Shown here piece after piece: positions 9,722-63,935 of a stretch of 64,000 bases of DNA. This DNA comes from Halobacillus mangrovi (GTDB lineage Bacteria > Bacillota > Bacilli > Bacillales > Halobacillaceae). The stretch lies in the NCBI RefSeq assembly GCF_002097535.1, contig NZ_CP020772.1, forward strand, positions 2,728,001 to 2,792,000, in the 5' to 3' direction. How positions within the stretch are numbered: position 1 is the first letter of the stretch; every line of letters starts with the position of its first letter. Below the pieces are notes generated by a model, which was given only the letters and a program-made list of their open reading frames with translations, was not told the DNA's origin and ran no database searches. Both the position numbers and the translations under genes were made by a program.

Positions 9722-9744
9722 CTCGCTTTCGAGGTACTGTGAGC

Positions 9745-16424: not shown

Positions 16425-16433
16425 CGATTATAG

Positions 16434-16464
16434 AAAAACACATTGCATAAGACAATGTGTTTTT
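16434..16464. terminator. Strong bidirectional terminator
   Basis: AAAAACACATTG and CAATGTGTTTTT make a 12-bp perfect stem with a 7-base loop between the 60-aa gene and the GrpB gene, which converge. Confidence 0.85.
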
Positions 16465-16485
16465 CTAGGTAAGCTAGTTTGTTCT

Positions 16486-17007
16486 TTATCTGTTTTCCCG
16501 CTGATTCCAGTGGATCGCTTTTTCTTCTATTTTTGAAACTAGCTTCTCCTTACCTTTTATATAAGCATTTATATCAAAAGGATAGCGCTTAGCCAACTCA
16601 CCTTTTAAGTTCCCGTACTCCATTCTTTCCTCTGAATGGGCCCTTAAATAGTCTCTAAAAGCAAGGTGGCGTTCAATCTGCTCATTTCCTGCCTCATAAA
16701 TATGAACATGATGAGTTCGATCATCGCCGTCTTTTTCAAAATACCTCCGACCTGGAATTCCATTTTCCCCTTTGGGGTGATAGCCGATCGCTTTCATTTC
16801 TACATTATAATCGTTAACTCTATGAATTTCTTTTACCACAGGCATTAGGTCAATAATGGGCTTAGCCTTCATACCTTTTACAGAAGTGCTTCCTATATGG
16901 TAGATAGCTACCAATTCCTCTTGGAAAATCCCTTTTATTTTTTTACTTTCTTCTTCAAACATAAACTCCCATTCTATTGTGTAAGGCTTAACCTCAACTT
17001 TCCTCAT
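16486..17007 (-). CDS. GrpB/UPF0157 nucleotidyltransferase-fold protein
   Basis: 173 residues of the GrpB (UPF0157) family: VEVKPYTIEWEFMFEEE at the start, YHIGSTSVKGMKAKPIIDL as the nucleotidyltransferase-like core (GST...KPIIDL), and HHVHIYEAGNEQIERHLAFRD. Catalytic activity is not established for the family; CoaE-fused members exist. The ATG at 17007 follows AAAAGGTGA; the GTG three codons earlier overlaps that site. It starts 15 bases after the nitronate monooxygenase gene and is in one operon with it. Confidence 0.85.
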   Translation of the reverse strand: MRKVEVKPYTIEWEFMFEEESKKIKGIFQEELVAIYHIGSTSVKGMKAKPIIDLMPVVKEIHRVNDYNVEMKAIGYHPKGENGIPGRRYFEKDGDDRTHHVHIYEAGNEQIERHLAFRDYLRAHSEERMEYGNLKGELAKRYPFDINAYIKGKEKLVSKIEEKAIHWNQRENR

Positions 17008-17022
17008 TTTATTCACCTTTTC

Positions 17023-18084
17023 TTAGCTCTTTATCCTTTTTGTCTGCGCAACAATGGATTGCACAATTTCAGCTGCGGATACACTTCGACTTAACCGCGG
17101 ACTCTGGCCGGACCATAGTGACATAAATTCAGGTCGGTTCTGTTTGGCTGCTTCCTTACGAATACCCTTCGTCAAAGAGTTTTGTAATGGATAGTCTAAT
17201 AGTTTACGTTCGTGACCTTCCATTTCTTTTACGAAGGTGTTAGTTATACCTCTAGCAGGTTTACCACTAAATGAACGAGTTATAACCGCTTCTGTTTCTT
17301 TTGTATGTAGAATGGCTTCTTTATGTTGCGGTTTGGCTCCGCTTTCTTTACAGGTAACAAAAGCAGTGCCTAATTGAGCGCCATCTGCACCTAATACTAT
17401 AGAAGCTCGTACCCCTCTCCCATCCATAATTCCACCTGCAGCAATCAAGGGAATGTTCAACTGATCTGCGACTTGAGGTACGAGTGACATCGTACCAATC
17501 ATCGATTGATTGTAGGAATTAGAAAATGTTCCCCGATGGCCTCCGGCTTCACTTCCCTGTGCTACCACGGTATCCATTCCATATTGTTCATTAAGGATTG
17601 CTTCTTCTACTGTAGTGGCAGTTCCAATCAGGACGATTCCTTCATTTTTAAGGTCTTGTATGATCCCTTTCGGTGGAATTCCAAAGGTAAAACTGCATAC
17701 GGGGACTCGCTCTTCTATAAGGATATTGATTTGATTTTCGAAAAGGCATTCATCCACTTGCGGTTTCGTTTCTTCCTTTATTCCGAGTTCATTTCGGAAA
17801 GGTTCGAGTAACCGGTTCGCTTCTCCTATTTCTTTCTCAGTGGCATAAGGATTTTCAGGGACAAACACATTTACGCCAAATGGACTTTTGGTTAAGTCCT
17901 TGATTCCCTGAATGCTCTCTTTCATAGTCTCAGGCTTCATATACCCTGCCCCCAGTGTACCAAGCCCACCTGCATTGGAAACCGCAGCGACGAGTGCTGG
18001 AGTAGTGACTCCTCCTGCCATTCCAGCTTGAATAATTGGATGATGGATATTTAGCAGCTCGAGTAATTGATTATCATTCCACAT
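17023..18084 (-). CDS. Nitronate monooxygenase / FabK-like flavoprotein
   Basis: FMN-dependent TIM-barrel enzyme of 353 residues (2-nitropropane dioxygenase family). Marks: HHPIIQAGMAGGVTTPALVA at the N-terminus, GTLGAGYMKPETM, then DTVVAQGSEAGGHRGTF with the histidine used in catalysis, and PLIAAGGIMDGRGV phosphate-binding loop with GADGAQLGTAFV. It oxidises alkyl nitronates to carbonyl plus nitrite, although FabK-type enoyl reductases share the fold. GGAG is about 8 bases before the ATG. First gene of the operon with GrpB. Confidence 0.85.
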   Translation of the reverse strand: MWNDNQLLELLNIHHPIIQAGMAGGVTTPALVAAVSNAGGLGTLGAGYMKPETMKESIQGIKDLTKSPFGVNVFVPENPYATEKEIGEANRLLEPFRNELGIKEETKPQVDECLFENQINILIEERVPVCSFTFGIPPKGIIQDLKNEGIVLIGTATTVEEAILNEQYGMDTVVAQGSEAGGHRGTFSNSYNQSMIGTMSLVPQVADQLNIPLIAAGGIMDGRGVRASIVLGADGAQLGTAFVTCKESGAKPQHKEAILHTKETEAVITRSFSGKPARGITNTFVKEMEGHERKLLDYPLQNSLTKGIRKEAAKQNRPEFMSLWSGQSPRLSRSVSAAEIVQSIVAQTKRIKS

Positions 18085-51878: not shown

Positions 51879-52026
51879 AATATCATTTCCCTCCTTACCT
51901 ATTATTCTAGCTTTCCAACTTATCGTCCTCAACCATCGAGATCGGACCTGCTGTCATTATAATTCCATATGAAGCCAGTAACCACTTATCGTTTCAGCAC
52001 TAAATAAGCTCTTCCCAAATGACTAA

Positions 52027-52065
52027 AGAACAGCCCTCAAATATGTAAAAATCGAAATCGAGATA
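52027..52065 (+). repeat. Array repeat copy 0
   Basis: AACAGCCCTC, then ATGTAA, then ATCGAAATCGAGATA. The most left copy, diverged. Between the DinB-like gene and the small ORF at 52186. Confidence 0.5.
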
Positions 52066-52185
52066 CAATGATTGGTTTAATCACTCCGTCCCTCTTTATT
52101 ATTTTTAAATGGTAGTCAGCCTGAGGAAGCAAAACAGTTTGAAATTGGTTTCATTAAGGTAACACACCTATTAGCAGGGAGACTA

Positions 52186-52359
52186 ATGAAGTGGAAAGTG
52201 ATTTTTAAGATTATTTATGTGCCTGTTATGGTTTATTTAATATATTCGACTTTGGATCTATATATTAATTTTGATCCCGCAGCTAAGATACCGATCCTTA
52301 CTTCTGTAACCTTAACGGGATATTGGCAAGTGTTCTTTATGAAAAAGAGTAAGAGTTAA
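52186..52359 (+). CDS. Small two-helix membrane protein, 57 aa
   Basis: MKWKVIFKIIYVPVMVYLIY and a second weak hydrophobic stretch (ILTSVTLTGYWQVFF), ending in a basic tail (MKKSKS). AGGGAG is 4-5 bases before the ATG. It is not similar to a known family that I recognise. It lies between array repeats 0 and A and is the first of the three plus-strand genes in that region. Confidence 0.5.
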   Translation: MKWKVIFKIIYVPVMVYLIYSTLDLYINFDPAAKIPILTSVTLTGYWQVFFMKKSKS

Positions 52360-52430
52360 AGAAAAGTGGCTGCCCTCCTATTAATAGAGGTGAAATAGAG
52401 TTAGGGCTATGTCCAGACCACGAGCACTCT

Positions 52431-52475
52431 ATTGAACATTCACCCCCTAAAGTGGAAGACTCGGTATTAAGATAA
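52431..52475 (+). repeat. Array repeat copy A
   Basis: ATTGAACATTCACCCCC, then GTGGAAGACTCGG, then TATTAAGATAA; 122 bases after the VOC stop codon on the minus strand. Confidence 0.65.
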
Positions 52476-52597
52476 TCAACCATACAGGTTAAGTGAATAT
52501 GAACTTTATAGCCTCCTAACCCAATCCCTTTATATTCATTCTTATTTTATTTGTGATCCTTTTTGAAGAGGTTATATTAGAGAAACGCAGTCCTATA

Positions 52598-52978
52598 TTA
52601 ATTTTTTTCCATTACAGCAAAATAATTATCTTCATTGTCCGCAAAATTAAACACTCTACCCGATGGCATATTTACAATTTCTCCCACAGTTATTTCTCTG
52701 TTTAGCAATTCACTATGTAGTTGCTCAAAATTCTCAGAGTAGAACATTAAAGAAGGGGTATCAAGGTTTAAACCTGGAGACATCTTAGCAACGAACTCTT
52801 TGTTGTGAAGAACGATGGTCGTTTCAGCACCTCTTTTTGGAGCAATCTCAATCCACCTCATTCCTTCACCGTTATTTTCTTCTGAAGTCACAATAAACCC
52901 TAAATTCTCTGTCCAAAAATTCACTGCTTCGTCTTGGTTATCAACATATAACATAATTTGACCTATTTTAGTAAACAC
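52598..52978 (-). CDS. VOC-family protein (array gene)
   Basis: 126 residues, glyoxalase fold: IGQIMLYVDNQDEAVNFWTE, RWIEIAPKRGAETTIVLH, and NMPSGRVFNFADNEDNYFAV. The usual metal residues (H/E) are partly replaced, so it may bind rather than act on a ligand. GTG start with GGGAGTGGAG upstream. Flanked by repeats A and B. Confidence 0.82.
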   Translation of the reverse strand: MFTKIGQIMLYVDNQDEAVNFWTENLGFIVTSEENNGEGMRWIEIAPKRGAETTIVLHNKEFVAKMSPGLNLDTPSLMFYSENFEQLHSELLNREITVGEIVNMPSGRVFNFADNEDNYFAVMEKN

Positions 52979-53157
52979 AATTCTCCACTCCCTAAAGGTT
53001 ATCTTCTGTTATTCTCTTTCTAGGAAGTGAATCCCTCCTTTTCTAAACTGCTTCATAATAATCTTCTCCACATTCCCTAAGTATGTAAATATTGATGTTT
53101 TATTTAAGCATTCGCTTGAGACTTATTATTGCTTATAACTGTCTAACACATAAAAAA

Positions 53158-53214
53158 GGAACGATCCCTCTGTTTGAGAATCGTTCCCTTCCGAAAGACT
53201 CAGATTCAAGATAT
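53158..53214 (+). repeat. Array repeat copy B with terminator-like hairpin
   Basis: AATCGTTCCC, AAAGACTCAG, TTCAAGATAT. On the minus strand GGAACGAT and ATCGTTCC pair and a T-run follows, so this copy acts as a terminator for the gene at 53269. Confidence 0.7.
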
Positions 53215-53268
53215 TTTTAATCATCTTTAAACCTACCTTACTTTTCTTTTACACCAAAATCTATCATG

Positions 53269-53574
53269 CTAAATCCTCGTTAATCCTATAATAATTAATA
53301 CGATCATAAAAATTGCATTGGGACCACTAACCAGCAACAGCCCAATTAACCACCTGCTTTTGTTGTCTCTATCCTCTTTAACTTCTGAATGGTAATTTGC
53401 TCTATTCCTATCTCCGTCTACAAAAGCACCAGTTAAAACCCCAGTTAGTAATAAGGGTACGACTGCACTAATGCCAATAATTTTTAAAGGTAATCCCCAT
53501 TCATTTGAATAAAGCCCGTAAGCTACTGAGGAAAGTGTACCTAACAGTCCTATCCCTAAACATTTTACTTTCAT
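53269..53574 (-). CDS. DUF5316-like small membrane protein
   Basis: 101 residues with helices near 5-22, 30-52 and 76-98. The loop reads GAFVDGDRNRANYHSEVKED, which resembles the DUF5316 pattern (GDRxRAN). Function unknown. GGAGGA lies 6-7 bases before the ATG. Between repeats B and C. Confidence 0.7.
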   Translation of the reverse strand: MKVKCLGIGLLGTLSSVAYGLYSNEWGLPLKIIGISAVVPLLLTGVLTGAFVDGDRNRANYHSEVKEDRDNKSRWLIGLLLVSGPNAIFMIVLIIIGLTRI

Positions 53575-53670
53575 TATAGATCCTCCTACTTTATGTACGA
53601 GTGGAATTAAATTAAGTTTCCAAGATAGATCTTAAATATAACCAAATAAAAAGACGACTACCTGTAAATT

Positions 53671-53710
53671 AGATAACCGCTCTGATGCTTGAAGACTCAA
53701 TATCGACATA
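53671..53710 (+). repeat. Array repeat copy C
   Basis: GATAACCGCTC, CTTGAAGACTC, TATCGACATA; 33 bases after the stop of the next gene. Confidence 0.55.
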
Positions 53711-53743
53711 TACAAAGTTTCCGTTCATGTATGAAGTAGTTTT

Positions 53744-54121
53744 CTAATTAAACTTATGTACAAGAAAAATATCAATAATGGTTAGCATAATAAAGATAAA
53801 GGCACTACTATATATATAGCTTTTTTTCTCTTTGCTCCACCATGTAGTTAAAGTCATAAGTGCAAAGACAACTATGGCCACTTGAATTTTTTGGATTCTA
53901 TCTTGCTTTTGAAATAGGTTAAGCGCTTCTTTAGCCTCACCTTTAAAAGGTTGCTCACTTATTACTTTCCCATACCAATTGTAATTAATTACTTGATGAG
54001 TTGTAGGTCCCTCTAAAGACTCTAACTTCTTAAAACCTAATACAGGCAGTTCAATAGAAAAAGTAAATAGTAAACCACCTATAATAAAAATTAGTATCAG
54101 TGACATTGTCTTTCTATTCAA
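53744..54121 (-). CDS. Membrane protein with three helices
   Basis: 125 residues. One helix at 7-27 (or a signal anchor), an outside loop of 55 residues, then two helices at about 78-95 and 102-121. TTG start with GGAGGAGG upstream. No known family. Between repeats C and D. Confidence 0.65.
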   Translation of the reverse strand: MNRKTMSLILIFIIGGLLFTFSIELPVLGFKKLESLEGPTTHQVINYNWYGKVISEQPFKGEAKEALNLFQKQDRIQKIQVAIVVFALMTLTTWWSKEKKSYIYSSAFIFIMLTIIDIFLVHKFN

Positions 54122-54160
54122 AAGCCTCCTCCTTCTGCTTCATTTTATTCAAGTTCTGTT

Positions 54161-54202
54161 GCGTTATTGCCCTCGATTGTTGAAGACTCGGAACCAAGAT
54201 AT
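54161..54202 (+). repeat. Array repeat copy D
   Basis: TTATTGCCCTCGATTGTTG, AAGACTCGG, ACCAAGATATC; 30 bases after the GNAT stop codon. Confidence 0.65.
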
Positions 54203-54232
54203 CATGGGATAGCCATTCGACTAACGAACCCT

Positions 54233-54709
54233 TTAGTTGAATTTAATCTCCATTTTTCTACTTTTAGTAGTCATCCCCAATGATCTATAAAATTCAATGG
54301 CAGATGTATTTTTCTCGGATACTCCCAATTCAATACTATCAACTCGGAGGTTCCTCCCAAAATCAAAAACATATCTAGTTAGTTTTTTTCCGATCCCCTT
54401 CTTTCGATACGTCTCCGCAACGCATAAACTATTTATAAATAACACTTTCCTCAATTTGAGAAAAGAATTTTCAATTGTTTCTTCTTCCTTCGTCACTATA
54501 ACCCCGACGATATCATTGCCTAGAGTAGCCACAAAAATGTGCTGTTTGCTATCAATTAACTGGCTTTCAAAGAACTCTTGCTCGACTGGAGTTGAATTTT
54601 CTTTGTACAAATCTGGTCTTTCAAAAACGTGGAATTCATGAACCTGTCTAAACAAAGGCAACAATGACTCATAATCGTTTTGCTCGGCGGTTCGAATAGA
54701 TATATCCAT
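54233..54709 (-). CDS. GNAT N-acetyltransferase (array gene)
   Basis: 158 residues of the GNAT fold. The acetyl-CoA loop is CVAETYRKKGIGKKLTRYV (RxxGxGK), followed by ELGVSEKNTSAIEFYRSLGM. RAEQNDYESLLPLFRQVHEF at the front is common in RimI-like members. Substrate unknown. AAGGAG lies 8-9 bases before the ATG. Repeat D follows its stop. Confidence 0.88.
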   Translation of the reverse strand: MDISIRTAEQNDYESLLPLFRQVHEFHVFERPDLYKENSTPVEQEFFESQLIDSKQHIFVATLGNDIVGVIVTKEEETIENSFLKLRKVLFINSLCVAETYRKKGIGKKLTRYVFDFGRNLRVDSIELGVSEKNTSAIEFYRSLGMTTKSRKMEIKFN

Positions 54710-54811
54710 ATTTTTTACTCCTTAATGATTGAATAAATGATTATGTACCACTTACTTGTTTTCAAGATTTCTCTTGATGTATCTGTAACTAAAGTATCCC
54801 TTCATTGAACT

Positions 54812-55363
54812 TTAAGTGCCATAACGGTCAATAACTTCCCCATTTTCGTCTAAAAATTTTATTGGACCCCAGGCATTCACTTGATAAAAGTAACGACCGG
54901 ATTTAGTGGATAGTATTTCTATTTCTTTTTTCTCATTTTTTACTTCTGCAGTTACAGAAGCTATATTTTCATTTTTCAATATCCCAAACGCTATTGGCAT
55001 CTCCTGTACATTTCCTTTTTCGGTTTCATAATGAAATACATTGTGTCTTGCACTAAATGAGTCGTCAGTCATGGCGATCATAGTAGAAAAGATAAACTCC
55101 CAACTTTTATCATTCTGACCAGTTACTAATGCAAACCCCAATTTTTTAAATTTTTCACTCTTATCTACATCTTGTGCAGTAAAAAGAACTATTGTTCCGT
55201 CATCTGTTTTTTGTCTAGAAAGGACATCATTTACTTTTATTTCTCCAGACCAGCCATTGTTTATGGCCTCTGCAGGTGATTCATAACTACATCCTGTAAA
55301 TACAAACACAACTAATAGTAACAGTAAGTGCATACTAAATTGTGTTGTTTTTCTTTTCAGCAA
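54812..55363 (-). CDS. Lipoprotein of unknown function
   Basis: 183 residues. The lipobox FVFTGCSYES is near residue 25, after a hydrophobic signal. The mature domain is beta-rich with GEIKVNDVLSRQKTDDGTIV and a C-terminal FLDENGEVIDRYG. TTG start with GAGGAG about 10 bases upstream. It has no family name I can support. It continues the minus-strand series between the GNAT gene and the plus-strand Arr gene. Confidence 0.72.
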   Translation of the reverse strand: MLKRKTTQFSMHLLLLLVVFVFTGCSYESPAEAINNGWSGEIKVNDVLSRQKTDDGTIVLFTAQDVDKSEKFKKLGFALVTGQNDKSWEFIFSTMIAMTDDSFSARHNVFHYETEKGNVQEMPIAFGILKNENIASVTAEVKNEKKEIEILSTKSGRYFYQVNAWGPIKFLDENGEVIDRYGT

Positions 55364-55669
55364 TTGTCATGACTCCTCTTTTATAACTCGGTTAAACTAT
55401 CATTCTTCAAAATTCACGTATAAAATCTATTAAAGATTTCTAATCCAAACTGTCCTTAAACAATCCTGTTCTCATAAATAAGGAGGCCATCCCCCCTAAC
55501 GAGAATCGCCCCGATTGTTTACTATCACTTTCTGTATATGTAATTGTCGACGAACTACATTCCCTCTACTTACATTATACTACCAATTGCATATTATTTA
55601 TAGACTACTCTTTCTATAGTTCCTCTTCTATACTTTAAAATACAAATCCAAAATTAGAGGTGTATCTTT
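55364..55669. other. Intergenic 306 bp with a possible partial repeat
   Basis: Between divergent lipoprotein and Arr genes. AATCGCCCCGATT (55504-55516) matches the first half of the array repeat only. No other feature seen. Confidence 0.4.
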
Positions 55670-56086
55670 ATGAATGAAAAAAAAGATGTCTTAGATAAAG
55701 GTCCTTTCTTTCATGGTACTAAAGCAGAATTAAAAATTGGAGACCTATTAAAACCTCACCACTTATCAAATTATCAAAACAAAAAGTCTAACTATATCTA
55801 TTTCACTGCAACATTGGACGCTGCTAAATGGGGAGCTGAATTAGCAATAGCTAATTCAAAAGAAAGAATTTATATTGTAGATCCATTAGGTGACTTTGAA
55901 AATGATCCGAACTTAACTGACAAGAAATTCCCTGGAAACCCAACACGTTCTTATAGGTCTAAGTCGCCTTTGAAAATCATAGCTGAATTAAGTTCATGGG
56001 AAAGACATTCAAATGAAGAGATCAAACATATGCTTACTTCTTTGAAAAAGTTACGTGAACAAGGAAAAGATGTAATCTACGATTAA
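55670..56086 (+). CDS. arr: Rifampin ADP-ribosyltransferase
   Basis: 138 residues, the full size of Arr enzymes. It opens with GPFFHGTKAELKIGDLL, where the His/Tyr pocket for NAD+ begins, continues with NYIYFTATLDAAKWGAELA and RIYIVDPLGDFENDPNLTD, and ends with RSKSPLKIIAELSSWERH. Arr moves ADP-ribose from NAD+ to the C23 hydroxyl of rifampin and inactivates it. AGAGGTG lies before the ATG. Plus strand, inside the cassette-like region. In other bacteria arr genes are known as integron cassettes. Confidence 0.92.
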   Translation: MNEKKDVLDKGPFFHGTKAELKIGDLLKPHHLSNYQNKKSNYIYFTATLDAAKWGAELAIANSKERIYIVDPLGDFENDPNLTDKKFPGNPTRSYRSKSPLKIIAELSSWERHSNEEIKHMLTSLKKLREQGKDVIYD

Positions 56087-56253
56087 CTCCAGCATCAATA
56101 AATTTATAACAGGAATAATATGGTTTCAAAATGCCAATCAACTTTCCTAATACACCTATAGCCAGAAACATAGGCTACTCTACCATCAATAAGACTGTCA
56201 TTATTCTTTTTCTATTTTTGGCTTTACGGGGTTTTTAAATGAAGGCTTAAAAA

Positions 56254-56275
56254 GACGCCCTGATATAAGGGCGCC
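56254..56275. terminator. Terminator between Arr and the OYE gene
   Basis: GACGCCC and GGGCGCC with an 8-base loop; a TTTTT run follows on the minus strand. Confidence 0.75.
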
Positions 56276-56293
56276 TGTATTCGGACTATAAGA

Positions 56294-57394
56294 TTAATAT
56301 AGTTTTTGCAGTGCTTCTTTATTAAAGGCTAATAGATCATCCACTCTACCTTCATGCACTTTCTTCACCCATGCAGGATCCATTAATAACGAACGACCGA
56401 TGGCTACAAGGTCGAACTCATCACGATCAAGTTTGTCCACTAAACCGTCAAGACTTGCTGTGCCGGCACCTGAAAAGTCCGTAAAGACACCATCAAGGCC
56501 AACAGACCCGACAGAAATGACCGGTTTGCCAGATAGTTTTTTTGTCCAGCCTGCAAGGTTTAAGTCAGAACCCTCAAATTCAGGCTCCCAGAACCTGCGT
56601 GTGGAGCAGTGGAAAATATCCACACCCGCTTCAACAAGCGGCTGTAAAAAGCGTTCCAACTCATCGGGATTATTGACCAATTTCGCTTGGAAGTCATTCA
56701 TCTTCCATTGGGAGAAACGAAAAATGATTGGGAAATCTTCACCAACTTCACGCCGGCACGCCTCTACGATCTCTACGGCAAATTGCGTGCGCTTAACGAA
56801 ATCGCCGCCATAACGGTCGGTGCGTTTATTGGTGTTTCCCCAAAAGAACTGGTCGATTAAGTAACCATGAGCCCCATGAATTTCAATAGCATCGAAGCCG
56901 ATGCGCTTCGCATCTGCTGCTGCTTTGGCATAGGATTCCACCAAGGCCTCTACTTCTTCTGTAGATAATGGTTCGTTCACTTTCTCCCCATCCAAGCTTA
57001 GGCCTGAAGGCCCCACCGGCTGTGCCTCTTCGTTTGGAAGATCCCCTTTGCTGCGAGTCATTCCTACATGCCACAGCTGCGGGGCAATTTTACCACCGGC
57101 CTCATGTACTTCTTTCACAACATCCGCCCAGCCGTTCAACGCCTTCTCTCCATGAAATACAGGAATATTCGCACCAGATACAGAAGCTGGATGGTCAATT
57201 CCAGTTCCTTCTGTAATAATCAATCCAACTTCATTCTCAGCACGTCTACGGTAATACGCCGCCACTTCCTCGTCGGGAACGTTCCCAGGTGAAAATCCAC
57301 GTGTCATCGGTGCCATTACGGTACGATTTGGTAAATTTAATTTATCACTAGTAAAAGTTTCAAATAAAGGTTTCGTTGTTGTTTGGTTTGTCAT
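56294..57394 (-). CDS. Old Yellow Enzyme-family NADH:flavin oxidoreductase
   Basis: 366 residues, FMN-binding TIM barrel. Marks: NRTVMAPMTRGFSPGNVP, APQLWHVGMTR, IEIHGAHGYLIDQFFW with the catalytic His pair region, NKRTDRYGGDFVKRTQFA. It reduces alpha,beta-unsaturated carbonyls and nitro compounds with NAD(P)H. The ATG at 57394 has AAAGGAGG upstream; the frame above (to 57550) is not used. First unpaired metabolic gene within the series; a terminator follows. Confidence 0.88.
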   Translation of the reverse strand: MTNQTTTKPLFETFTSDKLNLPNRTVMAPMTRGFSPGNVPDEEVAAYYRRRAENEVGLIITEGTGIDHPASVSGANIPVFHGEKALNGWADVVKEVHEAGGKIAPQLWHVGMTRSKGDLPNEEAQPVGPSGLSLDGEKVNEPLSTEEVEALVESYAKAAADAKRIGFDAIEIHGAHGYLIDQFFWGNTNKRTDRYGGDFVKRTQFAVEIVEACRREVGEDFPIIFRFSQWKMNDFQAKLVNNPDELERFLQPLVEAGVDIFHCSTRRFWEPEFEGSDLNLAGWTKKLSGKPVISVGSVGLDGVFTDFSGAGTASLDGLVDKLDRDEFDLVAIGRSLLMDPAWVKKVHEGRVDDLLAFNKEALQKLY

Positions 57395-57489
57395 TGATCT
57401 GCCTCCTTTTCCAACGATGTATGTAATTATCACAGATGAAAGGAGGAAACAAAAGAAATCTGTTTCTGTCCAGCACATCCATACTTCGA

Positions 57490-57684
57490 CTAGAACTGGG
57501 GAGTCTGCTCTTTTGCTTGTAAAGACGCGCCTGCATCTGCACTTCTGCATTTAATCTCTGTCCATATTGTGTTACCTTTCTGGACTGTAAAACCTTCTTT
57601 TTCAACGTTCTCCTTAGCTTTATGTATTAGGATATGTAAATCCTTATCTACTTCACTAAATGGTACTGATACAGCATTGACGTC
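57490..57684 (-). pseudogene. Remnant small ORF without a start codon
   Basis: A 64-codon minus-strand frame with protein-like composition (PFSEVDKDLHILIHKAKE, KGNTIWTEIKCRSADA) ends in TAG. There is no ATG, GTG or TTG in frame; an ATG with GGGG before it exists one frame off and stops after nine codons, which suggests a frameshift at the front. The protein is not recognised. It lies directly left of repeat F, as a cassette gene would. Confidence 0.4.
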
Positions 57685-57740
57685 CCCTTTTTAAAATTTG
57701 CCAAGATAACACATTATTACGTAAATTAATTAGATTGAAA

Positions 57741-57800
57741 AAGAGCGACTATCTTTTTCGATCATCACCCCCGTTGGTTTAAAACTTGGTTTCAAGATAA
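57741..57800 (+). repeat. Array repeat copy F
   Basis: ATCATCACCCCCGTTGG, then AAAACTTGG, TTTCAAGATAA. On the minus strand TGATGATC and GATAGTCGC may pair before CTCTTTTT. 57 bases after the CPBP stop. Confidence 0.65.
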
Positions 57801-57857
57801 TTTGGATTTAGAAATGTATTTTAGACTTTATTATTCAGTTCTCCAGAAAAAACTCCC

Positions 57858-58682
57858 CTATGCCTGAAGATGGTATCCTTTTTCCCTTGGATAAAGTTTG
57901 ATTAATCCAAACACCGTTGCAAAAAGTAATATAGCAGCAATGATAATTATTACTATCAAATCCACTTGAGTTGGTAATGATTGAGTTTCTTCACTCCCTA
58001 ACAAAGGTGAAAGATAAAGTTCATTCATAAACGCTAAAAAATTACCAAAAGAGTGTAAGAAAATTGGAACATATATTTTACCCGTTTTTAAATAGGCTAT
58101 TGAAAATAATATGGACATCAAGAATGCACTAATAAAACTAAATGGGTGACCAATTGTAAATAAGATTGCAGTAAATATTACACCCTTAAGACGGCCATAT
58201 TTTAAAACAAACTTGTTAAGCATCATTCCCCTGAAAAATAGCTCTTCTATAACTGGAGCTAATGCAACAGCTATAGTAATTTTTAACAGAATATTAGCAG
58301 GCAACGCTTGGTTCTGCAGTCTTTGATCTGCTAAAGGGACATCACCTATACCAGGGAATGCAAAAAGAATGGATACTCCAAGAGTCATAAATAATGCCGA
58401 TGCAGTTATTTTTACTACTGGAACAAAGGTAAACAAACTAATCCAAGGAATCTTAACATCATTTTTAGTGCTTATATTTGCATATCTCAACCCTCTTTTG
58501 GATAACTCAAGGCAAATCCATAAAAAAATGAATATGTATAAAGTAATATCTGCTATCTCAGTAATTGATTCACTGGGATCAAAGCCAATTGAAAATACCG
58601 TGTAAGATATTTCCCACACTAATACGAGAGGTATGATGTGCCATAGTTTTATATTTCTTAATCCTATCTTCTTTTGATTCAT
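57858..58682 (-). CDS. CPBP-family intramembrane glutamic endopeptidase (Abi type)
   Basis: 274 residues with seven to eight helices. Motif 1 PVIEELFFRGMM, motif 2 FTIGHPFSFISAF and motif 3 VPIFLHSFGNFLA are the CPBP active-site glutamates/histidines. Members process prenylated proteins or protect against peptides/phage. GGAGGAA lies 2-3 bases before the ATG. Between repeats F and G. Confidence 0.9.
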   Translation of the reverse strand: MNQKKIGLRNIKLWHIIPLVLVWEISYTVFSIGFDPSESITEIADITLYIFIFLWICLELSKRGLRYANISTKNDVKIPWISLFTFVPVVKITASALFMTLGVSILFAFPGIGDVPLADQRLQNQALPANILLKITIAVALAPVIEELFFRGMMLNKFVLKYGRLKGVIFTAILFTIGHPFSFISAFLMSILFSIAYLKTGKIYVPIFLHSFGNFLAFMNELYLSPLLGSEETQSLPTQVDLIVIIIIAAILLFATVFGLIKLYPREKGYHLQA

Positions 58683-58839
58683 TTGTTCCTCCTTTCAATT
58701 CTATTACCTCATCCCCATCCTTGAGAAGTATGTTTACCGAACTATGATTGTAAAGGGATTGTTTTCAGATGAATACTCTAAACTTCTATAAACCTGGATA
58801 TACTCAGCTAATTCAAGATTAGAAAAATAGTATATTGAA

Positions 58840-59031
58840 TCAATACCGCTTATAAACCCAAAAAAGTTCTATTTTTTCCCATCTGTCTTCGTTAAACTCA
58901 AAGCTATGTCCCAACACGTATAGAAGGGCAATTTCTTCAGTATTTAGAAATTCTTTTGCTTTCCTAAGTAAAGGAGAAATGTCTTCTGAGGCCTTATGCT
59001 CCTCCGTGAGATTAAATACTCTATTAAATAA
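58840..59031 (-). pseudogene. Remnant small ORF lacking a start codon
   Basis: A 63-codon minus-strand frame (FNLTEEHKASEDISPLLRKA, LYVLGHSFEFNEDRWEKIEL) ends in TGA. The ribosome site AAAAGGAG exists at 59033 but the codon after it is TTA, not a start. Protein-like, charge-balanced sequence with no family I can name. It looks like a decayed cassette gene between the CPBP gene and repeat G. The rest of 58683-59352 shows nothing coding. Confidence 0.42.
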
Positions 59032-59128
59032 TTACTCCTTTTTTACTCTCCTAACCTCATATTGCTATCGATAATTTTGTAATTCTATTGTTAAAACTAT
59101 TCAATTTTTTTCTATGTAATTAGAAAAA

Positions 59129-59186
59129 GGGAACAGCCTCTTGCTATGAATTAGCCCTCTATAGGTGAAGACTCAGTATCGAGATG
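59129..59186 (+). repeat. Array repeat copy G
   Basis: ATTAGCCCTCTATAGGTG, AAGACTCAG, TATCGAGATG. GGGAACAGCC with AGGGC may make a hairpin before TTTTTC on the minus strand. No minus-strand gene ends here; it is 160 bases upstream of a plus-strand gene. Confidence 0.6.
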
Positions 59187-59352
59187 TTGAGGTAAATACA
59201 TATATTTTAATTATAATAAAGCATTAGTGTAGGGAGGCATGCAAGGTTTCATCATTAGGACCTTATGGAGCCTCCTACTCATGTTTTTGTACGCTCTCCC
59301 ATGTATGAAGAGAATGTCTCCTGAATACTATATTCAATGGAGGTGACATCTC

Positions 59353-61311
59353 ATGGAACAAAACCATAACAAGAGGATGGAGGCAGAACTCACCCCTTTT
59401 CGCAAGGATGCCACAAAGAAAACGAAAAAAATTAACGAATTTATAAAAACGAACCTTCCGTGGGAAAGATTGAAGGTTGAACAGGAGTGGGCTACGAGAA
59501 ATGTGCTGAAAAGCGTCTCCCTCCCCGTTATCAAACCAGATGACTCGTTTCTCCCTGTTTGGGATTTAAAACGCTATGAATTCCTGTTGAAAGACAAACT
59601 TCCTTCATCCGTTAACCCAAAACTATGGCACCAGGGAAAACTAAATTTAAATGCCGGTCTTTTCCAAGTGACAGAAAACATTTACCAGGTCAGAGGATTT
59701 GATCTTGCTAACTTGAGTATTATTCGCGGAAAGACAGGCTGGATTGTTATCGACTGCCTCACAAGCAGAGAAACAGCAGAAGCCGCTTTTGAATTAATCG
59801 ACAGCTATTTTGGAAAGTTCCCGATTAGTGCCATCATCTTTTCTCATTCACACGTCGATCATTATGGGGGTGTTGATGGAGTCCTGAATAGCGGAACTAC
59901 CGATGATGTAAAAATTTATGCACCAAGCGGCTTTTTAAGTGCAGCCCTGGAAGAGAATGTGACCGCAGGTGTGGCCATGTCGAGACGAGGATTATACATG
60001 TATGGTGAGGTGCTGCCTCGTGGAGAAAAAGGTCAAGTAGACAGCGGCATTGGAAAGTATGTATCCACTGGTGTTGTGACTTTAGTCCATTCTGCTGAAG
60101 AAATTTCACTATCCAGGAATGAATCCTATGTAGAGAAAGTCATCGATGGTGTTAGAGTGCAATTCCAACTCACCCCGGATACAGAAGCTCCAGCTGAGAT
60201 GAATACGTTTATCCCTGAAGAAAAAAGCCTTTGTATTGCAGAGAACTGTACAGCTTCGCTTCATAACATTTATACATTACGCGGAGCTGAAGTGCGGGAC
60301 CCCGTCGCTTGGGCTAAATATATCCAACAGGCCATTGAGCTATTTGGAGAACAATTGACATCTGTATTTGAAGTGCATAATTGGCCAAGACACGGGAGAG
60401 AATACTGCATCGATTATATGGAAAAACAGCGAGACATGTACCAATATATAAATGATCAAACACTAAGATTGATCAACCAAGGCTATACTATCGATCAAGT
60501 AGGAAGAATGGTAACCTTTCCTGAAAGTTTAAAAGACGAGTGGTTTAACAGCTCTTTTTATGGAACGGTCAATCATAATTCTAAAGCAGTATACCAAAAA
60601 TATATGGGATGGTACAACGGAAACCCTGTCGATTTAAACAAGCTGCTCCCGGAAGAGTCATCAAAAAAATATGTGGATTTTATGGGTGGAGAGGAAGAAG
60701 TCATCAAAAAAGCTAATGAAAGCTTTAGAGATGGTGATTACCAATGGGTAGCTGAAGTTACCAAGCACGTTATCTTCGCAAACCCATCCAATAAGAATGC
60801 CAAATACCTTTGCGCGGATGCTCTGGAGCAGCTTGGCTACATCGCAGAATCCGGGCCATGGCGTAATGAGTATTTGATGGGGGCTCAAGAACTTCGTTAT
60901 GGAATTATTCCTATACAGCAATCTACCATCACAACAGAGGTTTTGGATATCATGACACTCGAACAAGTGTTGAACATGTTGAGTATCCGTATAAACGGAT
61001 TGATCGCTGGGGAGTATGACTTCAAATTGAACTTCATTATTCCGGATAGAAAAGAAGGAGCCTTGACGGAGATTAAACGAGGCATCTTCCGTTACTTATC
61101 TAATGAATTAAAAGAGGATCAAGTTAAGGTCATCATGAGTAAAGAAACCTTATATGAGTTAGCCACCACCAACAACCGTCCTTCTCCTTCTTCGATCAAA
61201 GTCATAGGAAATATTCAAAAGTGGCATCAATTTTTATGGGCTCTTGATCAAATAGACACAGACTTCCCTATTATGACGCCCTTGAGTAAAAAAAGAACCA
61301 ATGATTTGTAA
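59353..61311 (+). CDS. Alkyl/aryl-sulfatase (SdsA/BDS1-type metallo-beta-lactamase fold)
   Basis: 652 residues. The N-terminal MBL-fold domain has H165-S-H167-V-D169-H170 (SHSHVDHYGGVDGV) and further metal ligands (AENCTASLHN, EVHNWPRHG). A dimerisation helix block (about 430-530) and an SCP2-like C-terminal domain follow, as in SdsA1. It hydrolyses alkyl sulfates such as SDS, giving alcohol and sulfate. No signal peptide, unlike the secreted enzyme of Pseudomonas. Plus strand, inside the repeat region. Confidence 0.9.
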   Translation: MEQNHNKRMEAELTPFRKDATKKTKKINEFIKTNLPWERLKVEQEWATRNVLKSVSLPVIKPDDSFLPVWDLKRYEFLLKDKLPSSVNPKLWHQGKLNLNAGLFQVTENIYQVRGFDLANLSIIRGKTGWIVIDCLTSRETAEAAFELIDSYFGKFPISAIIFSHSHVDHYGGVDGVLNSGTTDDVKIYAPSGFLSAALEENVTAGVAMSRRGLYMYGEVLPRGEKGQVDSGIGKYVSTGVVTLVHSAEEISLSRNESYVEKVIDGVRVQFQLTPDTEAPAEMNTFIPEEKSLCIAENCTASLHNIYTLRGAEVRDPVAWAKYIQQAIELFGEQLTSVFEVHNWPRHGREYCIDYMEKQRDMYQYINDQTLRLINQGYTIDQVGRMVTFPESLKDEWFNSSFYGTVNHNSKAVYQKYMGWYNGNPVDLNKLLPEESSKKYVDFMGGEEEVIKKANESFRDGDYQWVAEVTKHVIFANPSNKNAKYLCADALEQLGYIAESGPWRNEYLMGAQELRYGIIPIQQSTITTEVLDIMTLEQVLNMLSIRINGLIAGEYDFKLNFIIPDRKEGALTEIKRGIFRYLSNELKEDQVKVIMSKETLYELATTNNRPSPSSIKVIGNIQKWHQFLWALDQIDTDFPIMTPLSKKRTNDL

Positions 61312-61317
61312 ACATAA

Positions 61318-61351
61318 AAACAAGTAATATCGTGTGCGATATTACTTGTTT
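61318..61351 (+). terminator. Terminator of the alkylsulfatase gene
   Basis: A 15-bp perfect stem, AAACAAGTAATATCG and CGATATTACTTGTTT, with a 4-base loop. Confidence 0.9.
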
Positions 61352-61460
61352 TCTTATCACAGCTTTATATCGGAAAGGGCGATGGCGTTTTCGAATGCAA
61401 CTAGAACTCATGCATCATTTTGTTGAATATTACGAAATCAACTCTTCAACAAAGTGAAAA

Positions 61461-61519
61461 AGCGATCGTTTATATTGAACAATCGCCCCCGATAAAGTAA
61501 GACTTGATTTCAAGGTATT
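61461..61519 (+). repeat. Array repeat copy H
   Basis: AACAATCGCCCCCG, GTAAGACTTG, ATTTCAAGGTAT. CTTGATTTCAAG inside is a perfect small palindrome. On the minus strand GCGATTGTT pairs with AAACGATCGC and TTTTT follows. Confidence 0.7.
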
Positions 61520-61641
61520 TTGTATAAATTATTAACTAACGCACCTTTCAGCGCTGTAAGTGATTGACATTATTCCACTCTTATTCGAAAGTAACTACCA
61601 AGTCACATGTTAAATCTTCGTGACTTGATTTACTCTTATAC

Positions 61642-61947
61642 TTAAGTATTCTTTTTAGTAAATAGTTTTCCAATTGTAAATATAAGCCCTATGAAGAAAT
61701 GTATTAATCCATTACCTACTGTAACAAGACCTACAAAAGCTGCCATTATTGCTCCTCCTTGACCGGAGTTACCAGGTCCTATCAGAAATCCACCAACAGC
61801 AAAGCCAAGCCCAACGCCAAAAATTGCTAATAAAAGACCAGAAGCCCAGAGGGGAAAATTCCCTCTTCTATGCCAATTGATTGCGTATATGTTTGCTGGG
61901 ATTATCAATGCTGCAAGAAATAACCACATTAGTACGTCATAAGCCAT
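61642..61947 (-). CDS. Small membrane protein, three helices
   Basis: 101 residues with helices near 5-24, 32-58 (glycine-rich) and 68-93. TAGGAGG lies before the ATG. No family recognised. Between repeats H and I. Confidence 0.68.
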   Translation of the reverse strand: MAYDVLMWLFLAALIIPANIYAINWHRRGNFPLWASGLLLAIFGVGLGFAVGGFLIGPGNSGQGGAIMAAFVGLVTVGNGLIHFFIGLIFTIGKLFTKKNT

Positions 61948-61991
61948 ACAATCCCTCCTAAAATACTTATGTTTAATATAATTAATATAGA

Positions 61992-62050
61992 AGGACGAGT
62001 ACTCTTTTAAACAATAGCCCCCATTAGTTGAAGACTCGAAATCAAGATAA
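61992..62050 (+). repeat. Array repeat copy I
   Basis: AACAATAGCCCCCATTAG, TTGAAGACTCG, AAATCAAGATAA; near consensus, 43 bases after the stop of the 136-aa gene. Confidence 0.75.
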
Positions 62051-62092
62051 ACTCTATAAATACCCTTCCTTAAATATTTTTATTAGTAAATA

Positions 62093-62503
62093 TCATGGTA
62101 AAGGGTAATCAATGACTTTCAGGATTAAATATACGATTCCAACTAAAATAAATGGAGCGAGTGTAGTCAGACAAATAAACAAAAACTTTTTAACTTCTTG
62201 CTTAGGAATTAACTGTTTTACTCTTTTACTAAACAACCAAGTCAAAAATAAAATAATACCAGAAATCCCTAAAAAGTACCCGCTAACATACTCTGGACTC
62301 TCCCCAGTTAATTCAATAAGATATATTCCGGTAATGATACTGAAAATTATAACTGTTGATATGATCACTTTAAATTTCCACAGCCACCACATTATTCTAA
62401 AGTGCTTTATACCTTCTATAAAATCACCTCTTATCACTTCTAATTTTTCCTTCAAAAATTCGATTAGCCTTTTAATCGTATATAATCCCCTTTCTTTTAT
62501 CAT
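62093..62503 (-). CDS. Membrane protein with four helices
   Basis: 136 residues: charged N-terminal helix (EFLKEKLEVIRGDFIEG), then membrane segments near 42-66, 72-92 and 106-131. The ribosome site (AAGGTAAG) is moderate. No family recognised. Part of the minus-strand series; repeat I follows its stop. The 62504-62663 gap shows nothing. Confidence 0.6.
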   Translation of the reverse strand: MIKERGLYTIKRLIEFLKEKLEVIRGDFIEGIKHFRIMWWLWKFKVIISTVIIFSIITGIYLIELTGESPEYVSGYFLGISGIILFLTWLFSKRVKQLIPKQEVKKFLFICLTTLAPFILVGIVYLILKVIDYPLP

Positions 62504-62663
62504 GACTCTCTTACCTTTAATACCAAATAAGTTAATGATAATACCAGAAGCTAACTCTAAGTGTGGATTCTAACACGAGATCAATATCTATTACTTTTAG
62601 AAGAGTATAGCAAATGTTATTGGATATATAATTGAACAAAATAAAATAAGTAGACGAAAAAAT

Positions 62664-63066
62664 CCTAGACTCTCCCGACAATGGGAAACCGGCACAAAAA
62701 GCAAAGGCAGCCTTATTGGAACGATCTTCTGCTTCTACCCAATTTTGTTGGATTGCTTTTCGAGAGAACTTTTCTAATTCAGGATTAAAATGAATTCTAT
62801 ACCATCCTGGTAATTAATTGACTGAACTTCTTTATTTACTGGGGCCCAAAAATCATAGGCTTGCATAGAATTGTTACCTAGCAATTTTGCTTTTTGGTTT
62901 AAGTATCGACCCCATCCACAGAATCTTCCGTATTTCCAATAAGAACCTCTAACTTCGTTACTTCCTGATCTATCTCATTTAAATGATTATGTATAACAAC
63001 TGAATCTGAAGACACGTTAAAAATTGAGTTGATTTCCCATCTTTCTGGATACATGAATTCCTCCAT
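62664..63066 (-). pseudogene. Frameshifted gene of unknown family
   Basis: The start at 63066 has ACGGAGGAG 5-6 bases upstream and reads MEEFMYPERWEINSIFNVS to about LIGNTE. Then the sense moves to another frame (GRFCGWGRYLNQKAKLLG, DFWAPVNKEVQSINYQDG) and, after GAATTC at about 62790, to a third (HFNPELEKFSRKAIQQNW, ending FPLSGES). Each part is protein-like and together they give about 130 residues, so two frameshifts are inferred. Left end is uncertain. Between the 136-aa gene and repeat J. Confidence 0.5.
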
Positions 63067-63200
63067 CCAATCTCCTCCGTTTATAAATATTTCCATATAA
63101 TTCAGAATAACAGAATATACGTTCTCGTCCCAGCTCATTTAAGACATTAAAAAGTGTACTCTGACTTAATGAGTACACTAAGTAATGATCCAATTAATTT

Positions 63201-63240
63201 TTAGATACCCCCGTTTATGTAAGACTCGAAATCAAGATAA
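63201..63240 (+). repeat. Array repeat copy J
   Basis: TAGATACCCCCGTTTATG, TAAGACTCG, AAATCAAGATAA; 18 bases after the VOC stop. Confidence 0.75.
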
Positions 63241-63258
63241 TTGAATAACATCTTATGA

Positions 63259-63654
63259 TTATAGGGCAACAAATTCTACTTTTATCCTATCCGGGTCTTC
63301 AAAGTAAACCGCATAATAATCCTCACCACCTGCAAAAGGATGTTCGTTTTCGTATAAAATATTTATACCTCTCTCCTTGAGCATTTTTGTCATTTTGTCT
63401 ACTCTTTCACGTGAAGATGCGTGAAAAGCCAAATGATTTAAACCAGTCCTGCATCTGTGGTAAGGTACGTCTAAAAACTTATTTTTTGTTTGGACAAACA
63501 CTAAATAAGTTTCTCCTAACTTCCAACTTTGTCCCTCATCCCATTTTTGATAAGACTGGTAACCTAACTCTTCCAAAAACCAGCGCCAAAATGATTCTGA
63601 CTTCTTTAAATTGGAAACATAAATTTCTACATGATGAAGTAAGCCTTCACTCAC
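63259..63654 (-). CDS. VOC-family protein (array gene)
   Basis: 131 residues of the glyoxalase/dioxygenase fold: LLHHVEIYVSNLKKSESFW, LNHLAFHASSRERVDKM, and YAVYFEDPDRIKVEFVA. The metal-binding His/His/Glu are in place (HHVEI, HLAFH, VEF), which suits a lactoylglutathione-lyase-like or fosfomycin-type metalloenzyme. GTG start with GGGGAGG 5 bases upstream. Flanked by repeats J and K. Confidence 0.87.
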   Translation of the reverse strand: MSEGLLHHVEIYVSNLKKSESFWRWFLEELGYQSYQKWDEGQSWKLGETYLVFVQTKNKFLDVPYHRCRTGLNHLAFHASSRERVDKMTKMLKERGINILYENEHPFAGGEDYYAVYFEDPDRIKVEFVAL

Positions 63655-63702
63655 TAAAACCTCCCCTTCCTATGCATAATTACATCATAACAATGTCAGA
63701 TT

Positions 63703-63748
63703 TATTAAAGAATCGCCCCCATTTGCTTAAGACTCGATTTCAAGATAA
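63703..63748 (+). repeat. Array repeat copy K
   Basis: AGAATCGCCCCCATTTGC, TTAAGACTCG, ATTTCAAGATAA; 31 bases after the stop of the 51-aa gene to its right. Confidence 0.75.
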
Positions 63749-63779
63749 TATTAGTCACTAGTAAAGAAACTACTATTTA

Positions 63780-63935
63780 TTAAAATTTATCTTTTTTCTT
63801 TTTCCCAATGTTATAACCCGTAATAATACCAGCAATAGTAAAGATAAGTATGCCCTCATCAAAGTCATCGAAAATCAATCCAAAGCCTGTCCAGACTACT
63901 AGAAAAGCTAATATTGAACTTATTAAAGCTCTCAA
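63780..63935 (-). CDS. Small two-helix membrane protein, 51 aa
   Basis: A TTG start with GAGAGGTGG 6-7 bases above; RALISSILAFLVVWTGFGLI, then FDDFDEGILIFTIAGIITG and a basic tail (KKKKDKF). Not recognised. It is the rightmost gene seen in the repeat series and repeat K follows its stop. Confidence 0.58.
   Translation of the reverse strand: MRALISSILAFLVVWTGFGLIFDDFDEGILIFTIAGIITGYNIGKKKKDKF

Follow-up and report, generated by a model that had tools for sequence, protein, structure and literature searches.

At its 3' end, a 64,000-nucleotide stretch of Halobacillus mangrovi DNA (NCBI RefSeq assembly GCF_002097535.1, contig NZ_CP020772.1, genome positions 2728001-2792000; hereafter the window) carries about 12 kb of short genes separated by copies of one directly repeated element, which raises the question of whether these genes are mobile cassettes, as in an integron, or ordinary genes followed by a dispersed repeat. 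Comparison of the array with those of other Halobacillus genomes and of the wider order indicates, with high probability, that its genes are mobile cassettes and that the array, itself without an integrase, is part of an integron-like system of Bacillales, in which a 280-aa Xer-like tyrosine recombinase would exchange DNA at the spacer of the repeat. The source genome consists of one contig of 4.14 Mb.

Repeat array in the window

All eleven repeat copies given in a preliminary description of this DNA were verified in the window, every one on the minus strand, with first bases at positions 52065, 52474, 53213, 53710, 54201, 57799, 59186, 61517, 62049, 63239, and 63747. A 37-position sequence model (R1) was based on 18 seed copies, some of them from the window, and a weight matrix was derived from matches in the stretches of other species that had been found with R1. 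The matrix recovered ten of the eleven window copies with scores of 23.5-51.7, against a maximum of 11.8 in 20 dinucleotide shuffles of the window, and missed only the copy at 53213, which is too decayed. The search of the window against Rfam gave 0 matches to known RNA elements or riboswitches at gathering scores.

The distance from the minus-strand stop codon to the site was 20-59 bp in seven of nine genes and 124-125 bp in the other two, close to the 18-60 bp first noted for most copies. The unit of one gene and one repeat proposed at the same time fails at 54201-57799, where four genes occupy 3.6 kb with no recognised site among them. The array extends past the window end to genome position 2795175 (window coordinate 67175). 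Distant from the array, a single site copy with a matrix score of 32 was observed at window position 10610 on the plus strand.

Sharing of units and position of breakpoints

When the 12.7-kb array was used as a query against 22 genomes (own included), single-segment matches scattered over each relative genome were obtained (for example array segments 1294-1785, 2932-3433, 6465-7404, 8000-10030, and 11921-12450; 68-93% identity among the matches listed). The units between consecutive sites, 357 in number, fell into 291 clusters, 51 of which had more than one member. For 35 neighbouring unit pairs both clusters recurred, and only 3 of these pairs were found in more than one array. The cassette-like architecture suspected in the preliminary description, perhaps of a new cassette system, is thereby borne out: units are relocated and reordered among species, the breakpoints lie in the repeat, and a recombinase gene stands beside the arrays of some relatives.

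The position of the breakpoints was determined from 220 alignments between the fetched stretches (at least 80% identity, at least 150 bp). Of the 701 homology ends inside arrays, 49.5% fell between offsets -12 and +50 relative to the start of a site, compared with a random expectation of 6.6% on average and 9.3% at most (200 placements). In addition, 47 unit pairs had at least 88% identity over at least 85% of their length; 31 of them had unrelated neighbours on both sides, and 23 of these 31 start and stop at a site in both sequences. With gaps allowed, the ends lay at the site in 31/34 cases upstream and 31/39 downstream. Identity-by-position profiles switch between offsets +26 and +33, the location of the GGGGGC spacer, and the composite downstream breakpoint estimate is +26. 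Exchange maps to the 6-bp spacer GGGGGC between the inverted arms of the site. Two junctions of one unit in genome G004 (stretch L112) illustrate this: at the first, the sequence to the left is common to a G020 array as far as GGGGGC, and at the second, the sequence to the right is common to a different G020 array from the spacer onward.

For six units of the window, the match to another genome has one end or both ends at a site in both sequences. The clearest is the glyoxalase unit at 63220-63749, which matches G012 at 91.5% identity and whose match stops at a site on either side. For the gene at 52598-52978 and the GNAT, lipoprotein and Arr genes, the matches stop outside sites or where the partner has none.

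These results bear on the explanation that the element is a plain dispersed repeat with a terminator and that the genes were shuffled through homologous recombination between its copies. By eye, terminator-like hairpins can be discerned after many of the sites, as the terminator-bearing repeat family offered in the preliminary description would have it, and further copies form the ends of short elements at other places in the genome, as would be expected of a dispersed repeat. Terminators leave the shuffling unexplained, however, and the breakpoints lie at the 6-bp spacer of sites that have only about 45 partly conserved bases in common, which is too short and too divergent for efficient RecA exchange. 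The near-strict single orientation of the sites and the fixed spacing of the start palindrome would also be unexpected, and we consider this explanation very improbable. An even spread of the repeat after ordinary genes throughout the genome, together with an unchanged gene order in related strains, had been named beforehand as an outcome that would speak against cassettes; the dispersed copies in this genome are the inverted ends of short, apparently non-coding elements.

Structure of the site and of the start palindrome

The site is composed of an accessory part TATCTYGAAWYCRA, a left arm GTCTTMANNWAAC, the spacer GGGGGC and a right arm GATTNTTCAATAA. The inverted 13-bp arms occupy site positions 14-26 and 33-45 and the 6-bp spacer positions 27-32; the inverted-arm register at offset 33 gave 6.0 matches of 13, compared with 2.5-4.5 at the other offsets tried. 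Positions 0-13 form an additional near-palindromic element that is mirrored in the start palindrome. Judged from its sequence, this 13-6-13 arrangement has the geometry of a tyrosine-recombinase core.

The arms within one site match at 6.04 of 13 positions and arms taken from different sites at 6.02 of 13, so that there is no sign of a hairpin constraint. Such missing covariation would be expected of a double-strand recombinase core and not of a hairpin-dependent attC site. The preliminary description had seen no clear attC R'/R'' pair; the site looks like a double-strand core with 13-bp arms and a 6-bp spacer, accompanied by an accessory palindrome, and not like a decayed attC.

Where the array of the window begins, at genome positions 2795116-2795175, a 60-bp palindrome of the form TATCTTGAAACTGAGTCTTCAAC-N14-GTTGAAGACTCAGTTTCGAGATA is present. 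Palindromes with this 59-nt arm spacing occurred 13 times in the fetched stretches, and in each case the palindrome opens the array, as far as fetched, on the gene-upstream side; in L107, a second array is present some 10 kb upstream of the palindrome. In ten other full sites, the arms are separated by 98-105 nt and enclose a terminator-like insert. As a fixed-length pattern, the palindrome was found at 30 loci in named genomes, mostly of Halobacillus and also of Thalassobacillus, Sediminibacillus, and Salimicrobium; in L122 and L138 an additional site is found on the far side of the palindrome.

The 280-aa recombinase

In G001, G005, and G020, the start palindrome is immediately preceded by a gene for a 280-aa Xer-like tyrosine recombinase, and the array follows in the same direction. 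A relative with 92% identity is likewise encoded ahead of such a palindrome in G031, which belongs to another genus. In these four copies of at least 85% identity (G001, G005, G020, and G031), the distance from the recombinase stop codon to the palindrome is 79, 102, 102, and 102 bp. Shortened or broken copies were found in G023 and G040, with sites present in their loci; a further candidate for a broken copy, G006:C6:88670, was dropped, no sites being present in its 10-kb stretch.

Across the order, relatives of the recombinase were found in 63/397 genomes and 33/135 genera (E<=1e-100). The best 120 of 1034 database relatives were 69-96% identical, and among them were proteins of Sutcliffiella, Rossellomorea, Peribacillus, Metabacillus, Lysinibacillus, Pontibacillus, and the B. 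cereus group. The family is uniform, as 31 sequences from these 120 align gap-free over 280 columns. K162, H229, R232, H255, and Y264 are invariant and R138 nearly so among the 31 sequences; they conform to the Phage_integrase pattern R..K..HxxR..H..Y and are presumably the catalytic residues, as we assign them with the aid of an alignment with XerD. The recombinase was found on 8 of 72,556 plasmid records (E<=1e-60), and none of 3 matches among phage records (E<=1e-40) exceeded 38% identity.

By sequence and by fold, the nearest solved relatives are XerA and XerD. A true integron lineage of IntI and attC type with diverged attC sites would have the same layout of a recombinase, a start site, a one-way single-gene array and additional integrase-less arrays; the best model for the recombinase, NCBIfam NF040815 (218-226 bits against a cut-off of 220, reached by two of three proteins), carries the words 'integron integrase', and a few clusters of attC sites lacking integron-integrases (CALINs) are reported for Firmicutes genera in PMC9024848. 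With the integron integrase model TIGR02249, however, the enzyme scored only 96-103 bits, in two pieces, against a cut-off of 265. IntI4 appeared first at row 17 of the fold search, behind XerA, XerD, and XerH chains; this ranking is only supportive, since the fold model is of moderate quality (mean predicted local distance difference test score 79, predicted template modelling score 0.59, last 25 residues below 50). Exchange at the present sites maps within the site, and not at the GTTRRRY edge at which integron cassettes are exchanged. Together with the arms that match no better within a site than between sites, this leaves an integron lineage with hardly any probability.

In its own genome, the array has no such enzyme. 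The recombinase query yielded only XerC- and XerD-type genes there (E<=1e-20), the six PF00589 matches, among them XerC, XerD, a pair of other genes separated by 3 kb and a split gene by a groEL-like open reading frame (ORF), include none at the array, and no recombinase is encoded by the ORFs beyond the palindrome of the window's array. The lack of an integrase that the preliminary description had stated for the window extends to the whole genome, and the tyrosine recombinase that it suggested seeking next to the array outside the window exists in some relatives and not beside the window's own array, which therefore looks stranded. The split gene is a phage-type integrase in two frames (G000:C1:3851197-3851774, stretch L150) adjoining the groEL-like ORF; in G020, a related integrase beside groEL (L181:6244-7422) was observed near the cassette recombinase and its array.

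Arrays in genomes of this kind would be accounted for if host XerC and XerD, and not the 280-aa enzyme, recombined the sites, the cassettes exploiting dif-like cores in the manner of Xer-using mobile elements. XerD-type genes were listed in 21/22 Halobacillus genomes and XerC-type genes without stops in 20/22, the exceptions being G018 with neither gene and G014 with an XerC-type match that contains stops. The own dif site ACTTCCTAGAATTTATATTATGTTAACT, located with what we take to be the B. subtilis dif sequence (2 mismatches), has a 6-bp centre, and its arms are faintly like the cassette arms (CTTC..TA.A and TGTT.AA, by eye). On the other hand, the 280-aa enzyme adjoins the start site of the array in its four closest copies, the own XerC and XerD genes lie at 2.41 and 2.10 Mb, far from the array at 2.78-2.80 Mb, and the cassette spacer is GC-rich whereas the dif centre is AT-rich. 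Exchange by host Xer proteins is accordingly regarded as unlikely.

Several observations were made around the recombinase genes. A LexA-type box (CGAACATGCGTTCT-type), which we liken to the Bacillus LexA operator on the basis of its presumed consensus, lies 154-167 bp upstream of the recombinase in 3/4 Halobacillaceae copies (L186, L187, and L198). SOS control of the gene is not claimed, as the LexA-box scores in other genera are no better than those of shuffles. In several genera (several of L204-L211, and L186-L198), a conserved TTTGAAATAATTGGTATTAAG-like stretch was seen just after the recombinase stop codon, ahead of the start site or of the position where it would be expected; it could be a promoter or an enzyme-binding stretch. 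A general palindrome search around the recombinases was weak (16/35 loci, compared with 11/35 when shuffled), and a motif-specific search of 44 loci gave 4 sites, including the Halobacillus palindrome of L188, compared with 0.0 in shuffles. Direct repeats 3' of three recombinases in other genera contained no clear cassette repeat.

A plasmid labelled Arthrobacter citreus (CP053689.1, L244) encodes a recombinase 62% identical to the cassette recombinase, adjoining a row of small genes, NUDIX and CPBP genes among them, most of which lie on one strand. The gene row looks like Bacillaceae, and the label may be wrong. No core site was detected on this plasmid by the same scan that found the core of a Sporosarcina plasmid.

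Distribution of sites and arrays

As proposed in the preliminary description, the repeat model was searched in the genome and its relatives. The number of candidates that R1 scored in each genome was capped (150 in the Halobacillus searches, 17 in the order-wide search), so that the counts are lower bounds, and the R1 matches include ends of dispersed elements besides array sites. Matches at E<=0.01 were obtained in 21/22 Halobacillus genomes, with none in G015. The own genome has at least 115 matches at E<=1 among the 150 candidates scored, G009 has at least 150, all 150 scored candidates being matches, and 141 matches at E<=0.05 were found in twenty stretches from relatives. The densest stretches contain 24 sites in 20 kb (L102), 19 (L096), and 17 (L101), all in a single direction save one second arm in L102.

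Over 34 array stretches, 401 sites lie in the majority direction and 30 against it, the majority being the larger count per stretch by construction and two sites being counted twice in the 3-kb overlap of L103 and L181; 28 of the 30 minority sites belong to full sites as second arms, at a distance of no more than 130 nt.

Across the order, R1 matches were found in at least 75/397 genomes (E<=0.001), and the short core TTCAASTAAMGGGGGC occurred 60 times in 43/397 genomes, with 1 occurrence of the reversed-pattern control. Genome G292 has 11 co-directional like sites in 18 kb around its recombinase, the stretch of G025 (L236) has an array without a recombinase, and L239, L241, and L243 have one weak site apiece. 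On the Sporosarcina plasmid, the core is kept beside a recombinase gene with a different accessory part (TTGTTCAACTAAC-GGGGCAG-GTTAGTTGAACAA).

Dispersed elements without an obvious gene were also observed in the own genome (e.g., L001, L002, L003, L005, L006, and L008), with ends that are inverted copies of the cassette arms. They are about 0.2-0.65 kb long (by eye), many of them 340-650 bp, have interiors that look alike, and number about 25-30 pairs by eye. They look like elements of the miniature inverted-repeat transposable element type that use the same ends as the cassettes.

Unit length and cassette genes

The median unit length is 681 bp (340 units of 200-3500 bp between consecutive sites). 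The longest ORF of the unit is co-directional with the array in 293/357 units and opposed in 45, and 19 units have no ORF of at least 50 aa. Among 150 representative ORFs, 95 Pfam families were represented, acetyltransferases being the commonest (12 match Acetyltransf_1), and NUDIX hydrolases, BacA-like genes and phosphotransferase genes were also present. Enrichment of defence genes was not seen in these 150 proteins: of 35 PADLOC families matched, the 25 listed hit 1/150 proteins each, many of them through reverse-transcriptase models. Reverse-transcriptase genes of group II intron type were observed within arrays or gene rows at L182:15601-17448, L113:10051-11898, and on the plasmid L244 at 16418-17746, the last from the plasmid annotation and the others by eye or by a PADLOC reverse-transcriptase match.

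The motif TGAAAC-N15-17-CGTA, a putative promoter of the extracytoplasmic function (ECF) sigma factor type, occurred in the first 170 nt of 31/357 units, and it was absent from the last 200 nt and from the reverse complement of the units.

Proposed mechanism

A cassette would typically consist of one small gene between two site copies, sometimes with an ECF-type promoter at its start. Most likely, two sites are brought together by the 280-aa recombinase and their strands are exchanged inside the spacer, whereby cassettes would be excised as circles and inserted at the start site, with the palindrome as the putative entry site, or at the site of another cassette. The asymmetric spacer would let all cassettes enter in one orientation. 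The genome of the window may once have had the enzyme, or it may receive cassettes ready-made, for example through homologous recombination with incoming DNA. More generally, arrays in genomes without the 280-aa gene may reflect loss of the gene after the array was built, supply in trans from a plasmid, or host XerCD. The simplest view of the window's array is that it is stranded and decaying, since the recombinase is lacking, the spacer differs from GGGGGC at 8/11 sites, and a site-free stretch of 3.6 kb is present.

Several observations weigh against this interpretation. The link between recombinase and palindrome comes from the four closest copies, and no site (Halobacillus matrix) was found at L189 and L201 (53-54% identity) or L203 (45%). 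Among 26 loci read of the 28 from other genera (L204-L231), L220 alone has a matrix site in the 200 bp that follow the gene, and a site anywhere in the locus was found in five. The recombinase at 85% identity or above is present in only 3/22 Halobacillus genomes, though sites are present in 21/22, and 10 of the 13 genomes with arrays that were examined, including the own genome and G009, lack it. The short core occurred in 12/63 recombinase-bearing genomes and in 31/334 others, the two 397-genome samples being taken as the same.

As regards the breakpoints, the remaining half of the 701 homology ends lies away from sites. Ungapped estimates from single pairs scatter: downstream, only 20/39 fall within 21-33, and upstream, 12/34 reach the edge of the test, with the composite at +52. 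The unit pairs were chosen by unit limits and unrelated neighbours, which biases them towards ends near sites, a bias of which the 701-end test is free. Comparison of units between genomes, which the preliminary description had suggested, revealed moved and reordered units with breakpoints in the repeat, but no gain or loss of a single unit between kept neighbours: a pair of the type A-B and A-C-B was absent from the fetched stretches. No excised circle was observed.

In a wider sense, the system is probably an independent gene-capture platform of Bacillales that arose from an Xer-type recombinase, with double-stranded 13-6-13 sites, from a few to more than 100 one-gene cassettes per genome, and its own stress-type promoters and leading terminators. 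Cassettes with their own promoters and leading terminators would then be expressed individually and not from a common promoter.

Sites and genes of the window

All sites of the window lie on the minus strand. At the end nearest to the start palindrome, site K (63702-63747) consists of the accessory part TATCTTGAAATCGA, left arm GTCTTAAGCAAAT, spacer GGGGGC, and right arm GATTCTTTAATAA, and it bounds the unit common to G012 (91.5% identity). This unit contains a glyoxalase/VOC gene of 131 aa (63259-63654, minus strand; Pfam Glyoxalase) and ends at site J (63194-63239, spacer GGGGGT). A 136-aa ORF without a Pfam match follows (62093-62503, minus strand), together with a remnant-like 79-aa ORF in the same unit, and then site I (62004-62049, spacer GGGGGC), which is the top R1 match of the genome. 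The next unit, with a 101-aa ORF without a Pfam match (61642-61947, minus strand), is also present in G007 at 88.6% identity, one end lying at +32 in both sequences and the other at +6 in the window only. Site H (61472-61517, spacer GGGGGC) has a terminator-like hairpin and a T-run just downstream (by eye).

A 652-aa ORF (59353-61311, plus strand) stands on the opposite strand, as stated in the preliminary description, which is the only source of its name, alkylsulfatase. It is followed by site G (59141-59186, spacer GAGGGC) and by the gene of a CPBP (Rce1-like) membrane protease of 274 aa (57858-58682, minus strand; Pfam Rce1-like), whose unit is found in G020, G006, and partly in G010. Site F (57754-57799, spacer GGGGGT) has a terminator-like hairpin (by eye), and high-scoring segment pairs with three other genomes end at its +30/+35.

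The site-free stretch contains a 418-aa flavin oxidoreductase-like ORF (by eye; 56294-57550, minus strand), whose true start is probably further in, an Arr-type ADP-ribosyltransferase gene of 138 aa, likewise on the opposite strand as described (55670-56086, plus strand; Pfam Arr-ms, 1e-46), a 183-aa lipoprotein-like ORF (by eye; 54812-55363, minus strand), and a GNAT acetyltransferase gene of 158 aa (54233-54709, minus strand; Pfam Acetyltransf_1). Site D (54156-54201) has the spacer GAGGGC and is the upstream breakpoint, common to G007 and G012, of a 125-aa ORF without a Pfam match (53744-54121, minus strand). Beyond it are the decayed site C (53665-53710, matrix score 23.5), a DUF5316 gene of 101 aa (53269-53574, minus strand; Pfam DUF5316), and the strongly decayed site B (53168-53213), at which a terminator-like hairpin is retained (by eye). 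The second glyoxalase/VOC gene (126 aa; 52598-52978, minus strand; Pfam Glyoxalase) precedes site A (52429-52474, spacer GGGGGT), and site 0 (52020-52065, matrix score 25.4), with a decayed left arm, is the last recognised site. The two VOC genes, the GNAT gene and the CPBP gene named at the outset are thus confirmed by Pfam. The nine minus-strand genes other than the 418-aa ORF are regarded as cassette genes.

Comparison with known systems

According to PMC9024848, integrons are extremely rare in Firmicutes, with one complete integron (Limnochorda pilosa) besides the few CALINs, and PMC8618304 lists Firmicutes among the integron-bearing phyla. No description of the present system was found in the literature covered on cassettes, integrons and recombinases in Halobacillus, Bacillus and Firmicutes/Bacillota, on Halobacillus genomes and on bcr repeats, a coverage that leaves out most subscription papers and bioRxiv preprints. 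If the interpretation is true, a system parallel to integrons explains how Halobacillus species share single accessory genes, such as the acetyltransferase, NUDIX, BacA-like and phosphotransferase genes of the units and the Arr gene of the window, and it offers a second, simpler model for the origin of cassette arrays and a possible double-strand cassette tool. As relatives of the recombinase occur in 33/135 sampled genera of the order, the question is addressable in tractable species.

Bacillus cereus bcr repeats and repetitive extragenic palindromic elements (REP/REPIN) are likewise short dispersed repeats with palindromes; to our knowledge, they are not found as gene-bounding one-way arrays with a fixed place of exchange. 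Xer-dif systems (XerC/XerD, XerA, and XerH) resemble the present system in their recombinase family and in having inverted arms around a centre of 6 bp, as seen in the own dif. They differ in having one chromosome-dimer site, whereas many gene-bounding sites are present here, together with a distinct and near-uniform family of 280-aa proteins beside the arrays in the closest copies.

The closest resemblance is to sedentary chromosomal integrons, such as the Vibrio superintegron, and to CALINs. There, too, cassettes of one small gene form tandem arrays of a single orientation that are shuffled one unit at a time and in many cases lack an integrase, and the palindrome next to the recombinase gene in the four closest copies would correspond to the start site beside the integron's tyrosine recombinase gene. 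The one-way array of small cassettes with exchange at the site (401 v 30 sites, and the breakpoints) is integron-like, and sites in a genome in which the recombinase was not found are CALIN-like. In contrast to integrons, the recombinase is Xer/XerA-like, the site is a 13-6-13 core with an accessory palindrome, some cassettes have ECF-type promoters and many a leading terminator (by eye), and in the Halobacillus cases the recombinase gene is directed towards the array. The system is an analogue of the integron and not an integron, since its enzyme falls below the integron-integrase cut-offs and its arms show no covariation within sites.

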